A stretch of DNA of 64,000 bases from an uncultured Acinetobacter sp. (GTDB lineage: Bacteria; Cyanobacteriota; Vampirovibrionia; Gastranaerophilales; Gastranaerophilaceae), in assembly GCA_947306495.1 (NCBI GenBank), contig CAMZGT010000004.1:1-64000 (forward strand), given 5' to 3'. Positions 45,003-58,625 of the stretch are shown piece after piece. Numbering within the stretch: position 1 is the stretch's first letter; each line of letters begins with the position of its first letter. The translations under genes were made by a program, and so were the position numbers. The notes beneath the pieces were generated by a model. That model saw only the letters and a program-made list of their open reading frames with translations. It did not search any database and was not told the DNA's origin.

Positions 45003-45738
45003 CAGCACCTGTTAACATTTTCTGTGCAATTTCATTTATTTGAGAAGACACCCTGGAATCAAGTCTTATATCAGGAGTTTCAACTATAACACCATCAACA
45101 GATAAAGAAGTATCTTCGGTAATTTTTATACTTTGAAGATTAGGGATTTCTTCCCTCACTTTATTTGCAATATTATTGATGTTTTCAACTAACTGCGGAT
45201 TAACTATAATTGTTATATTTTCTTTATCATTCAACTGTTTTATTGCATCAACAGTAATTTTGTACAAGATTTCATCATTAAAACTTATATGACAAACTTT
45301 GTCTGCTATTGTTGCAACTAATTCCACAATATCTCTCGCAGCTGAATCTATTATATTCTTTTTTACATCAAAAGAAGAAGAAGCAAGTGTTTCCAAAGAA
45401 TTCAAACTATCCTCGGCATCTTTCTTAAATTGCTCCATTCCGTCAGCTTTTCCTTTTTCGAAACCTTCTTGATATGCCTGCTGTTTTATTGATTCATATT
45501 CTTGCTCACCTTTTTTGTGAGCATCATCAATAATTCTTGTAGCTTCAGTATTAGCCGTTTCAATTATAATTTGAGATTTGTTCTCAGACGCAGCAATTAT
45601 CTGCTGAGCTTTAGCATCAGTTTCCTCTAAGATTTGTTGTACTTTTGCCTGAGAACGGGTTACTTTTGATTGCTCAATTGGTAAAACATAACTGTCACCA
45701 ACTTGAATTTCCCGACCTTGTATTCTGTTACTACTCAA
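44980..45738 (-). CDS. fliH: flagellar assembly protein FliH
   Basis: The FliI regulator and stator-like subunit, 252 residues. A helical, Gln/Glu-rich N-terminal half (about 25-110, QAKVQQILEETDAKAQQIIA) is followed by the conserved C-terminal domain that contacts FliI, with IVNPQLVENINNIANKVREE (partial) and VDGVIVETPDIRLDSRVSSQ. The start is TTG with GAGGA eight bases upstream. It overlaps fliG by eight bases and fliI by about 23, indicating coupled translation. Confidence 0.88.
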   Translation of the reverse strand: MSSNRIQGREIQVGDSYVLPIEQSKVTRSQAKVQQILEETDAKAQQIIAASENKSQIIIETANTEATRIIDDAHKKGEQEYESIKQQAYQEGFEKGKADGMEQFKKDAEDSLNSLETLASSSFDVKKNIIDSAARDIVELVATIADKVCHISFNDEILYKITVDAIKQLNDKENITIIVNPQLVENINNIANKVREEIPNLQSIKITEDTSLSVDGVIVETPDIRLDSRVSSQINEIAQKMLTGADDGLEQE

Positions 45739-46780
45739 TTAATTCATCCTCAACACTAGCACGAGTAATCGTAATTTCACCTGTAGCTTCAAGATTTCTG
45801 ATAGCATTAACAACCGCAGTTTGAGCCTCTTGAACTTCTTTAGCACGGACTGGACCAAGGTACTCCATGTCATCAAGCAACATTTGACGTGCTCTCTCAG
45901 ACATATTTCTGAATATCTTATCCTTAATCTCTTCTTTAGTACCTTTAAGAGCTGTTGCGAGTTGTTTTGTATCGATTTCTCTAAGCAATCTTTGAATTGC
46001 TCTGTCATCAAGGATAATAATATCTTCAAATACAAACATCAAGTCACGAACTTCTTGAGCCATTTGTTGATTTTCTATATCTAACCATTCCATTATGTTC
46101 TTTTCTGTTCCCCTGTCACAACAGTTAAGTATATTTGCTAGTGATTCAACTCCACCTGCGTTTGAGAAGTCTTGCACCAAAAGGGCAGAGAACTTTTTCT
46201 GAACAATATCTTCGATTGTTGTTAAAATTTCTGGATTTGTAGGAGTCATATCTGCAATCTTCATTGAAACAACAGCCTGAACATCAGGCGGTAAAAAAGC
46301 CAATACTTGAGCTGCCAATTCAGGTCTTATATATGCAAGAATTAATGCTAATAATTGCGGATTTTCAGATGCGAAGGTGTTTGCAAGCTGCGAAGGATCT
46401 GCTTCATTAAGAAAATAAAAAGGATTAGTGTTAACCATTGAGTTAACTTTTTCAAGCATTTTTGCTGCTTCATTATCACCATATGCTTGTGATAACAATT
46501 GCTTTGCATAACTTACACCGCCAAGTGCAACATAATTTTTTGCCTGAAAAACGGTTTTAAACTCGTCCAAAACTTCGTTTAAATCTTCGTCTGTTACTTT
46601 ACCAAGATTAGCAATATCCAGAGTTATTTGTTCAAGCAAATCTTCATCTTTTATATTTTTAAGGATTTCAGAAGCCGTTGCCGGACCAAGCGCAATCAGA
46701 AGCGCAGCAACCTTTTGGCTGGGGCGCGTAATTACCTTTTTGGCTTCTTCTTTGGCCTTTTTAATCTCTTCTATACCCAT
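45731..46780 (-). CDS. fliG: flagellar motor switch protein FliG
   Basis: Part of the C-ring switch that converts stator motion to rotation, 349 residues. FliG repeats are clear: KVAALLIALGPATASEILK (N domain), PQLLALILAYIRPELAAQVL with middle-domain EHPQ-type motif as ENPQ, and the C-terminal FEDIIILDDRAIQRLLREID containing charged torque residues. The ATG has no Shine-Dalgarno next to it; instead AAAGGAGG occurs beyond a long octamer-repeat hairpin (46784-46861). It lies between fliF and fliH in one operon. Confidence 0.95.
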   Translation of the reverse strand: MGIEEIKKAKEEAKKVITRPSQKVAALLIALGPATASEILKNIKDEDLLEQITLDIANLGKVTDEDLNEVLDEFKTVFQAKNYVALGGVSYAKQLLSQAYGDNEAAKMLEKVNSMVNTNPFYFLNEADPSQLANTFASENPQLLALILAYIRPELAAQVLAFLPPDVQAVVSMKIADMTPTNPEILTTIEDIVQKKFSALLVQDFSNAGGVESLANILNCCDRGTEKNIMEWLDIENQQMAQEVRDLMFVFEDIIILDDRAIQRLLREIDTKQLATALKGTKEEIKDKIFRNMSERARQMLLDDMEYLGPVRAKEVQEAQTAVVNAIRNLEATGEITITRASVEDELIE

Positions 46781-46783
46781 TGT

Positions 46784-46861
46784 AGTGAAGTGATTGAGTG
46801 ATTAAGTGATTAAGTGATTTAATTTCACCTGTTCACCTGTTTACTTGTTCACTTTCTCACT
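46784..46861 (-). repeat. octamer-repeat hairpin between the SD and the fliG start
   Basis: On the plus strand four AGTGATTN octamers (46784-46817) face octamers of the type TCACCTGT/TCACTTGT (46825-46861) across a 7-base loop. The arms are largely complementary, with regularly spaced mismatches and wobble pairs. In the mRNA AAAGGAGG (46867-46874 on the plus strand as its complement) precedes the hairpin and ACA-AUG follows it. Looping out the hairpin leaves eight bases between SD and AUG. Confidence 0.65.
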
Positions 46862-46872
46862 ATTTTCCTCCT

Positions 46873-48450
46873 TTAGTCTCTTATGAATGATGTCAATAAC
46901 TTAGCTGCTTCATCAGGAGCTGCCATTACTGCCTCATTTAACTCATTTATATTTTGATCTTTTTTAGATCGAATCTCTTTTTTATTTAACTCTATTCTTG
47001 GGATTTCTTCTTCCTGTTCGATTTCTTCTTGTTGCGCTTCAGGAATTTCTTCATGAATTCTTCGTTCTACACGTTTTGCAGTTGGCATCTTAGAAACAAA
47101 ATTCTTAAGAATAAGCAAAGCAAATCCGCCAAGTAGAACAACAATAATAAGCGGGATTACAGAAGACGTTATGAAGTAGAACATTTGTTCTTGTTGATAC
47201 TGCTTTGTAAAATCTTCTTGAGCCATCTTATCTATAGAAGCACCCTCAAATTGTAATCCTGAAATAGATATAACATCTCCTCTTGAGTAGTCTACACCTG
47301 AAGCAGAAAGTACAAGGTTTTTGATTTCTTCTTTTTCCGAATCAGTCAAAACTTTGTTAACCGCAACTGCTATAGAAAGTCTTTTTACGGTTCCCGGCGC
47401 ATAAACTACCTGCTTCACTTCTTTTGTTACACTATAGTTAACTGCTGTTTTTTGTTTTGAATAATTTAAATTTCTGCTTGTAACACCTGGAGTTGGAACG
47501 CTTTGAGACGGGATATTATTTAGGCTCGCAGCATTATTTGGGTTCTCATACGTTTCGACTTCTGTTTGAGAACTTGTTACTACACCAACACCCTTATCAT
47601 CGTTAAGCGGTACATAACTTTCAATCGTAGATTTTGCCGAATTAAAGTCTATATCCGCATTAACTTGAACTGTTACGTTTCCTTTTCCTACAATTTTTTC
47701 TAATACCGTTGCTACTTTTTTAGCTGTATCTTTTTCCAGATTGGATTTGAAACTTTCCATATCAGTAGAATTTTTTGATGTTTCATCAGAAAGAGTATTC
47801 CCCTTTTGGTCAGTAATAAAGACTTGTTCCGGAGTCATTCTCGGTACGGCATATGCAACCAAATTTTTTATAGCTTTAACTTGAGAACTTTTTAATTTAT
47901 ATCCGGGTTCTAGAACCAACATAACAGAAGCCGTTGGTTTTTCGTCATTTTCCTCAAATATAGAACGCTCCGGTTCTGCAAGTTGGACACGAGCATATTT
48001 TACACCTTGAATTTTTTCAATAGAACGAGTTAATTCGCCTTGAAAAATTCTTTGTCTTGTCAACTTGTTTTTAAAATCTGTTGAACCCAATTGTAATTCA
48101 TCTACAAGTTCAAAACCCTTATTTTCATTTTTGATTAAATCATTTTCCGCAACAAAAACCCTCATGTCATCACGAACATTTGAAGGTACCAAAACAGATT
48201 TATGATCCTCAGACAGTTTGTATCTGTAACCATTCTTTTTCATTCCTTCTACAACATTTATTGCATCAACTTCATTTAAATCCGAATATAAAACAACCCA
48301 ATCCGGTTCCATAGCTTTAGATAGAAAAAACGTCGCAGCGATAATAGTAACGACAATAAGAGCCAGCATGCCAAGCTTCTGGTTACCGTCCAAACCGTTC
48401 CAAAGTTTCTTCATATCATTAGCTAATAGTGCAAGATAATTATTTTCCAT
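46873..48450 (-). CDS. fliF: flagellar MS-ring protein FliF
   Basis: The membrane ring that nucleates flagellar assembly, about 525 residues. It has an N-terminal transmembrane helix (about 20-42, LGMLALIVVTIIAATFFLS), ring-building motifs DWVVLYSDLNEVDA, RIFQGELTRSIEKIQGV and VQLAEPERSIF, a second transmembrane helix (about 420-450), and a C-terminal FliG-binding tail (NELNEAVMAAPDEAAKLL). The ATG at 48450 (MENNYLALL) is preferred to an upstream TTG, with GGGGAG just before it, unusually close. First gene of fliF-fliG-fliH-fliI. Confidence 0.94.
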   Translation of the reverse strand: MENNYLALLANDMKKLWNGLDGNQKLGMLALIVVTIIAATFFLSKAMEPDWVVLYSDLNEVDAINVVEGMKKNGYRYKLSEDHKSVLVPSNVRDDMRVFVAENDLIKNENKGFELVDELQLGSTDFKNKLTRQRIFQGELTRSIEKIQGVKYARVQLAEPERSIFEENDEKPTASVMLVLEPGYKLKSSQVKAIKNLVAYAVPRMTPEQVFITDQKGNTLSDETSKNSTDMESFKSNLEKDTAKKVATVLEKIVGKGNVTVQVNADIDFNSAKSTIESYVPLNDDKGVGVVTSSQTEVETYENPNNAASLNNIPSQSVPTPGVTSRNLNYSKQKTAVNYSVTKEVKQVVYAPGTVKRLSIAVAVNKVLTDSEKEEIKNLVLSASGVDYSRGDVISISGLQFEGASIDKMAQEDFTKQYQQEQMFYFITSSVIPLIIVVLLGGFALLILKNFVSKMPTAKRVERRIHEEIPEAQQEEIEQEEEIPRIELNKKEIRSKKDQNINELNEAVMAAPDEAAKLLTSFIRD

Positions 48451-48542
48451 GTCTCCCCACGCACAATTATTCAATAATAATCATATCCCAAGTAGTAAAT
48501 CTTTTCAAATAGTTAAGATATTTTAAGCAAAATGTAATATAA

Positions 48543-56950: not shown

Positions 56951-57715
56951 ATGAGTAAAAGTTTGTTTATAGATTATATGGAAAAATTACTGGCTTTTCC
57001 TCTATGGATTAAGCAAACAATTTTTTTAAACTTGTCTAATGATTTAACAAATTATCTTAGTAATGAATTTTTGGATGTTGAAGAAGGAGAATTATTCCAC
57101 GTCTATAAACCAACTCTTTCAGAATTTGGACAGAATGAACTTTTAACAAAAGAATCAAAATTTGATGAAAGTATTTATTCTTTTATGAACTGCTGTTCAA
57201 AGGGCATGTCGCTTATTGAAATTGCTATTGAAAACCAATTTTCACTTGAAGAAGTCGCCAAAGCTTTTACATTTTGCAGGACATCAGGATTTTTCTCGAA
57301 GGAGGTTCCGAATCTTGTAAGTGCAATTGCAGGATTTATTGCCGGTAAGTACCGTACCGGTGAATATTTTATTCGCGCAGGCAAAATGACTATAGAACAG
57401 CTTGATGAAGTATTAAATAAACAACAAGAGATTAGTGCTTCGGGGAAACACGTTTTTATTGCTGAACTTATGGTACAAATGGGTTTTGTAAGAGATTTAG
57501 ATGTAAAAAGTATTATTTTTATGAAAGAGGAAGCAGGAAAAAGATTTTCTTTAAATCCAAACGAACTTCCAAATATAACTCTTGAAAAAGAAAACTATGA
57601 TATAAGAGTTGAGAACACTAAACTAAAAGAAGAAAACGAAATCTTAAGACAAAAAATGGATGCTATTTTGACTTTCATAAAAGACCACAAGGAAAGTGAT
57701 TCGGTTACGGAGTGA
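56951..57715 (+). CDS. protein with a GspE N-terminal-like helical domain and coiled coil
   Basis: A 254-residue soluble protein. Residues about 135-190 (GEYFIRAGKMTIEQLDEVLN, then a stretch ending LMVQMGFVRDLDV) resemble the N-terminal domain of type II secretion/type IV pilus ATPases (MshEN-like: 'G.LL...G.I...QL.EAL......G..L.EIL...G.V....'). The last 45 residues are a coiled coil. Without an ATPase domain, it could be a regulator or adaptor; similar domains bind cyclic di-GMP in some proteins, though the key motif cannot be confirmed here. GAAGGG precedes the ATG. Probably co-transcribed with the asparaginase gene. Confidence 0.6.
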   Translation: MSKSLFIDYMEKLLAFPLWIKQTIFLNLSNDLTNYLSNEFLDVEEGELFHVYKPTLSEFGQNELLTKESKFDESIYSFMNCCSKGMSLIEIAIENQFSLEEVAKAFTFCRTSGFFSKEVPNLVSAIAGFIAGKYRTGEYFIRAGKMTIEQLDEVLNKQQEISASGKHVFIAELMVQMGFVRDLDVKSIIFMKEEAGKRFSLNPNELPNITLEKENYDIRVENTKLKEENEILRQKMDAILTFIKDHKESDSVTE

Positions 57716-57719
57716 CTAA

Positions 57720-58625
57720 GTGACTAAATCTTTTGTAGTTAATTATATTCGTGACGGACTAATAGAAGAATCACATGAAGGTATATTTGCAGAGAATAGC
57801 TCTAAAAATTACGATACTGCACCATTTTATCTGCGTTCTTGTGCTAAACCGCTGCAAGCAACGTTATTAATTGACTATGATGTTGATTTGACGGAAAAAG
57901 AACTTGCGATATGCTGCGGTTCACATGCCGGAGAAGATTGTCATATAGAAACTGTCCGCAATATTTTAAATAAAAATAATTTAGATGAAAGTCTCTTAAA
58001 ATGCGGCGTTCATGCACCACTGTCAAGAACAATGCAAGATAAAATGCTTATTAACCATCAAAAACCTACTGCTATACATAATAATTGTTCGGGGAAACAT
58101 GCCGGTTTTCTTGCCATATGCAAAAAAATGGGGTGGGATTTGAAAACATATGATGAGCCGTCACACCCTCTTCAAACAGCCATAAAAAATAAAGTAAACA
58201 AACTATGCAAAGTAAAAGATAAATTCCCGACAACAACAGACGGTTGCGGAGTTCCTATATTGAGCATGCCTCTTTATAATATTGCCCAAGGGTTTATTTC
58301 TTTGCTTGAATACCCAAGAATAATTGAAGCTATATTAAGAAATCCTTATATCTACGGAGGTGAAAACCGCACAGATACAGAAATTATTCAAAAAAGTGAA
58401 GGTTTAATCGCAAAAGTCGGCGCAGGGGGTCTTTGTACAATTCTAAATGTAGATAAACAACAAGCTTTTGTTTTAAAAATACATGATTGCTCATATGAAG
58501 CAAGAAGAATAGCCGCTTTTGAATATATTAAAAGACTTGGGTGGGGAAATCTAAGCTACGATAATAATATAAAAACTATCTCAGGCAAAATCGTGGGAAA
58601 AGTCAAAGTTATTTTTGAAGGATAA
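57720..58625 (+). CDS. L-asparaginase II-type amidohydrolase
   Basis: A 301-residue member of the asparaginase II family that includes Rhizobium AnsA. Conserved segments are YLRSCAKPLQATLL, ELAICCGSHAGEDCHIETV, LSRTMQDKMLIN, NNCSGKHAGFLA, DEPSHPLQ and TTTDGCGVPILSMPL. It hydrolyses L-asparagine to aspartate and ammonia. The start is GTG, with GGAG seven bases upstream, four bases after the preceding stop. A tandem octamer (AGTGACTA twice) spans stop and start. Confidence 0.9.
   Translation: MTKSFVVNYIRDGLIEESHEGIFAENSSKNYDTAPFYLRSCAKPLQATLLIDYDVDLTEKELAICCGSHAGEDCHIETVRNILNKNNLDESLLKCGVHAPLSRTMQDKMLINHQKPTAIHNNCSGKHAGFLAICKKMGWDLKTYDEPSHPLQTAIKNKVNKLCKVKDKFPTTTDGCGVPILSMPLYNIAQGFISLLEYPRIIEAILRNPYIYGGENRTDTEIIQKSEGLIAKVGAGGLCTILNVDKQQAFVLKIHDCSYEARRIAAFEYIKRLGWGNLSYDNNIKTISGKIVGKVKVIFEG

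Follow-up and report, generated by a model that had tools for sequence, protein, structure and literature searches.

A candidate hairpin-bridged ribosome binding site before fliG and a dispersed octamer-hairpin family in a genus of Gastranaerophilales

The fliF-fliG junction

The window, by which we mean the whole stretch of 64 000 nucleotides analysed, carries on its minus strand the genes fliF and fliG. The parts of the junction between them are as follows.

46873..48474, minus strand: fliF, the upstream gene (Pfam YscJ_FliF and YscJ_FliF_C; list of open reading frames)
46875-46873, minus strand: fliF stop codon TAA (sequence)
46867..46874, minus strand: Shine-Dalgarno (SD) sequence AAAGGAGG, overlapping the fliF stop (sequence; anti-SD duplex energy −11.6 kcal/mol)
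46825..46862, minus strand: 5′ arm of the hairpin, GTGAACAG-type octamers (Tandem Repeats Finder, period 8, 3.6 copies; fold)
46818..46824, minus strand: apical loop AAUUAAA (fold)
46783..46817, minus strand: 3′ arm of the hairpin, TTAATCAC-type octamers (Tandem Repeats Finder, period 8, 4.0 copies; fold)
46773..46871, minus strand: whole split ribosome binding site cassette, as predicted (covariance model R2, 31.8 bits, E-value 2.4e-4)
45731..46780, minus strand: fliG, the downstream gene, with start codon ATG at 46780-46778 (Pfam FliG_N/M/C)

Read on the minus strand, the junction consists of TAA, AGGAGG, AAAA, the hairpin, CA and ATG, in this order; the fliG start is kept as MGIEE among relatives. 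Tandem Repeats Finder detected a period of 8 in both arms (46788-46819, 4.0 copies with 91% matches; 46824-46852, 3.6 copies with 85% matches). The sequence GTGANNNNGTGA occurs eight times in the window, with 0.94 occurrences expected, and five of the eight are inside the fliF-fliG hairpin.

Positions 46862-46783 were predicted to fold into a single stem-loop of −22.3 kcal/mol (z −2.84), with none of 200 dinucleotide shuffles as stable; the stem is imperfect, having mismatched internal loops every ∼8 nt. When the spacer was folded from the end of the SD core, the z value was −4.96. The unpaired distance between SD and AUG is 86 nt in the linear sequence and 6 nt in the folded one. There is no proximal SD: the duplex energy is +2.6 kcal/mol at the proximal site, against −11.6 kcal/mol for the distal SD.

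The original prediction, which placed a long imperfect hairpin of inverted octamers between an SD and the fliG AUG, agrees with these observations: sequence, Pfam, Tandem Repeats Finder and the fold all give this layout, with two period-8 arms. Small corrections are that the SD overlaps the fliF stop and that the imperfections of the stem are regularly spaced internal loops. It had also claimed that no other ribosome site serves fliG, and this too held. A scan of 46500-47200 found no promoter-like or terminator-like site, and an internal promoter or an intrinsic terminator was rejected on this result. Searching Rfam with the hairpin and with other fliF-fliG inserts produced sub-threshold chance matches only and no family. 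The 16S anti-SD tail could not be recovered from this genome; the sole match, in genus member G058, may be contamination.

Gain and loss of the hairpin in relatives

The closest FliG relatives with named records are largely metagenome-assembled genomes of Candidatus Gastranaerophilales, an order of Candidatus Melainabacteria, and many of them come from rumen and gut. We compared 72 fliF-fliG junctions, i.e. the window and 71 of 72 further loci (L193, being unreadable, was left out). The order SD-hairpin-AUG was present in 22 of the 72, the window included, and none of these 22 has a proximal SD; all 50 hairpin-less junctions have one, mostly weak. Hairpin and proximal SD are thus mutually exclusive in all 72 junctions. 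In 34 of the junctions the gap is short (2-39 nt) and the proximal SD weak to moderate; the remaining hairpin-less ones hold other inserts, every one with a proximal SD.

In the 22 hairpin junctions a strong or fair SD adjoins the fliF stop, and octamer arrays, which come in several sequence types, make up most of the stem-loop. A strong SD just 3′ of the fliF stop was seen in 19 of the 22, against 5 of the 50 junctions without hairpin. The sequence from SD to AUG was predicted to fold as a single stem-loop in 22 of 22 cases; SD and AUG lie 39-114 nt apart in the linear sequence and 3-21 nt apart (median 9) in the folded one. Individual fliG hairpins are not all beyond chance (z from −1.2 to −5.3, n = 22).

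The state of the hairpin has changed at least 17 times on the FliG tree. Among independent pairs on supported branches, the proximal SD agrees with the exclusion in seven of seven (sign test, p 0.016), and a strong distal SD tracks the hairpin in 5.7 of seven pairs on average.

The junction gives the impression of a hot spot for insertions. In the gaps of L213, L201, L203 and L206 the same hairpin position holds another octamer family (TTGAGAAG / CTTCTAAA), which suggests that one array type was replaced by another. Non-octamer inserts separate fliF and fliG in L209, L223, L230, L189, L202, L205, L216, L218, L222 and L241; several of these share a structured-looking GTCAGCAGAGG..GACC segment, followed by a proximal SD, that has no Rfam match.

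The further proposal that the octamer number changes by slippage and so tunes or switches fliG found no support. The arrays of the near-identical L201 and L203 are equal in length, as are the inserts of L209 and L223, a close pair with another (non-octamer) insert; the comparison was made between species, and it is only between species that differences in array length were seen.

A dispersed octamer-hairpin family with two branches

Arrays of GTGANNNN octamers were found in 48 of 65 genomes of the genus; the number of triplet matches in a genome ranges from 0 to 278. Arrays paired in inverted orientation greatly outnumber those of the reversed-pattern control, and in a sample of 40 inverted-array sites the majority lie in short intergenic gaps. 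A right arm directly 5′ of ATG was found at ∼70 places in 25 genomes, while the reversed control gave a handful; 42 of these places precede open frames, most with recognizable N-termini, and most of the 42 have AAAGGA(GG) ∼90-100 nt upstream and no proximal SD. The genes that follow the AAAGGAG-[octamer hairpin]-AUG cassette include flhA, flhB, flgI, flgB, atpG, atpF, asd, lpxC and recR, as well as ABC transporters, MacB-like permeases, a four-carbon-acid sugar kinase and others (outside the window, gene names come from recognition of the N-terminal sequence, not from a family search).

Other short repeats were also seen. In genome G026 long intergenic mosaics (L067-L096), mostly of direct repeats, combine GTGANNNN octamers, GTGAAGG-like heptamers and CTTCTCAA-like octamers. 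A short GTGACTAA array in the window (57700-57730) spans the border between two consecutive frames, overlapping the stop of the first and the GTG start of the second (GAGTGACTAAGTGACTAAA). At an oppA-oppB-like junction on contig C7 (L005, ∼1495-1540) a GTGA octamer array gives the upstream TGA stop and a possible GTG start.

Aligned cassettes share a common sequence. The covariance model R2 was built from 13 homogeneous cassette copies of relatives, with the window site left out; it replaced a first model, from a mixed alignment, that had no pairs and was rejected (RNAalifold found no consensus structure in the mixed alignment either). Matches to R2 are present in 40 of 65 genomes and number up to 48 in a single genome (some sites match on both strands), and the model found the window site at E-value 2.4e-4 even though this site had no part in building it. 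An order-wide search gave strong matches only in this genus, and weaker ones in other genera of the family. A covariation test within the homogeneous cassette family was nil, as is expected of recently dispersed copies; support for the pairing therefore comes from its persistence across different octamer families rather than from compensatory changes at aligned columns.

Reading 52 sites found by R2, we assigned 20 to type I (SD-hairpin-start, arms with a recurrent mismatch per octamer) and 23 to a hairpin followed by a start at a distance, with nine unclear. Type II has the order stop-hairpin-SD-start and better-matched arms: its right arms are mostly TATTAAC, matching the left arm, whereas type I right arms are TATT(C/T)AC, with one mismatch to the left arm per octamer. 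Re-scoring was done on 40 sites split by the proximal SD, so that the difference at the proximal site is there by construction. The median energy of the distal SD was −9.2 kcal/mol in type I and −5.2 kcal/mol in type II (p 2e-6), and type I stems are the weaker ones (median −15.8 versus −21.9 kcal/mol, p 1e-4). Type II hairpins precede rpsM, rpsK, rpsD, rplM, rplQ, tsf, plsX and others; the second R2 site of this genome, before plsX, is of this type (L380). Type II sites lack the distal SD and have a proximal one, which indicates that the SD changes position according to the side on which the hairpin lies. In the ribosomal protein operons of G058 and G014 (L357, L373, L375), well-matched octamer hairpins stand upstream of the SD between many genes (rpsM, rpsK, rpsD, rplM, rplQ). 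From these sequences the fliG hairpin is, as we read it, a member of a genus-wide dispersed octamer-hairpin family with two branches.

Type I spacers, 50 in number (the 22 of fliG and others), were predicted to fold into a single stem-loop in 49 cases. Their median SD-AUG distance is 90 nt linear and 9.5 nt folded; a folded distance of no more than 21 nt as a single stem was obtained for 98% of them and for 26% of shuffles, with median fold energies of −15.5 and −7.1 kcal/mol, respectively. A control of 816 genes, located in stretches that had been chosen for carrying arrays, was scored for bridging: a start of the bridged kind was predicted for 52 of 143 genes with an upstream array, for 10 of 673 others and for 5 of 673 shuffles. 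Most of the ten array-less genes turned out to be type I sites that had been missed.

A proposed split ribosome binding site and its precedents

Comparison among relatives establishes the arrangement, its recurrence, its exclusion of a proximal SD and the foldability of the spacer; folding in the cell, use by the ribosome and effects on expression are what we infer from these. Judging from sequence, we consider it rather probable that translation of fliG, and of many further genes in the genus, starts from a split ribosome binding site whose two parts a hairpin brings together. A strong SD (AAAGGAGG) would lie 5′ of an imperfect octamer stem-loop and the AUG 3′ of it; the stem-loop would fold during mRNA synthesis and then be looped out, the 30S subunit would meet SD and AUG ∼5-13 nt apart instead of ∼90, and initiation would occur at this AUG without a second SD. 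Comparison lends good support to the claim of the original prediction that folding puts SD and AUG at a normal distance: SD, hairpin and AUG are kept, despite varied arms and with no proximal SD, at 22 junctions, hairpin-less species carry a proximal SD and, for the most part, a short gap, and the cassette recurs at other genes.

Of the other explanations, the one that survives best, unlikely as we find it, is that the hairpin is an intercistronic repeat that is merely tolerated, similar to REP or BIME elements and perhaps guarding fliF mRNA, while fliG would be translated without an SD, through S1 and the A/U-rich stretch that precedes the AUG, or by reinitiation from fliF. The octamer family is indeed dispersed and mostly intercistronic, and the gaps of hairpin-less relatives go down to 2-15 nt, as is typical of translational coupling. 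Against it speak the strong SD by the fliF stop, concentrated in hairpin junctions and rare in the others, the lack of a distal SD at type II hairpins, and type I cassettes that have no detected upstream gene within ∼200 nt (L267, L280, L295).

It is quite improbable that the SD drives a mini-ORF (GTG AGA AAG TGA in the window) whose translation, or stalling on it, opens the hairpin and regulates fliG. In 11 of the 22 fliG cassettes, the window included, a GTG lies 3-6 nt downstream of the SD and a stop follows 2-11 codons later, so there the SD could also serve a mini-ORF; this explanation is weakened because 34 of the 50 type I cassettes lack any start codon in the interval 3-13 nt downstream of their SD. 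A conserved mini-ORF was rejected, as its codons and length vary. Least probable of all is a standby site or thermosensor: the 30S subunit would wait at the SD until the hairpin opened, so that the hairpin would lower translation and its stability (octamer number) would set the level. Type I stems are weaker than type II stems, as if easy opening had been selected, but an opened stem would leave SD and AUG ∼90 nt apart with no proximal SD, and SDs are not known to work at such a distance.

More tentatively, we propose beyond the hairpin-bridged site itself a portable ribosome-binding-site cassette, with its own SD, a mismatch-bearing octamer hairpin and an end at the AUG. Such a cassette may spread between genes of the genus, by a mode that we can only infer, converting coupled or weak-SD starts to hairpin-bridged ones and governing the rate of initiation at genes for the flagellum, ATP synthase and the envelope. 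If confirmed, hairpin bridging would characterize a bacterial lineage with such starts at about a dozen genes in its richest genomes; the natural set of gains, losses and length variants would allow tests of the length of looped-out insert that the 30S subunit tolerates. It would also bear on the prediction of gene starts and ribosome binding sites, which misses SDs located 90 nt upstream.

Several components of this arrangement have precedents, namely the bridging mechanism, dispersed intergenic hairpins and heptamer repeats close to starts; their combination, a dispersed octamer-hairpin cassette with a far-side SD across many bacterial genes, was not found described in the open-licence literature, where a search for repeats of Gastranaerophilales or Melainabacteria also gave nothing relevant. 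The octamer hairpins resemble REP/BIME/REPIN and ERIC/IRU elements in being hairpin-forming, in having many intergenic copies per genome and in lying in transcribed intercistronic gaps; they differ in their arms, which are built of variable octamer arrays, and in that one branch contains an SD and ends at a start codon. REP units have a GTAG/GAGG-type head and a linked RAYT transposase, and the octamer arms do not resemble them. Cyanobacterial STRR heptanucleotide repeats, from a related phylum, are also tandem repeats of a short unit that are scattered through intergenic DNA; their unit length differs, and we know of no split ribosome binding site among them.

TAACTGA heptamer repeats of Beggiatoaceae, Cyanobacteria and Bacteroidetes are likewise short tandem repeats near the starts of many genes, just upstream of the start codon, and a translational role has been proposed for them; they are direct, have no predicted fold, overlap the expected ribosome binding site and mostly replace the SD (PMC4679880). 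The octamer arrays, in contrast, are inverted and predicted to fold, with a strong SD retained on the side away from the start codon.

Two T4 genes are, to our knowledge, the only ones for which an SD bridged to its AUG by a hairpin has been described. In genes 25 and 38 of T4, for which the mechanism has been demonstrated, a stem between SD and AUG reduces a spacer of 27 nt to 11 nt and one of 22 nt to 5 nt, respectively, and helps initiation (PMC3014915, reviewing Nivinskas et al. 1999; Malys and Nivinskas 2009). As there, an over-long SD-AUG spacer is shortened by an RNA stem: in all 22 hairpin junctions the SD is too distant and no closer SD is present, and the predicted stem brings SD and AUG to 6 nt at the window fliG (median 9.5 nt in the 50 sites), within the ∼5-11 nt expected of a T4-type site. 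While T4 has one short stem in each of two phage genes, the spacers described here are 39-114 nt long, consist mostly of tandem octamers, are dispersed in a bacterial genus before many unrelated genes, and have been gained or lost repeatedly at one site.
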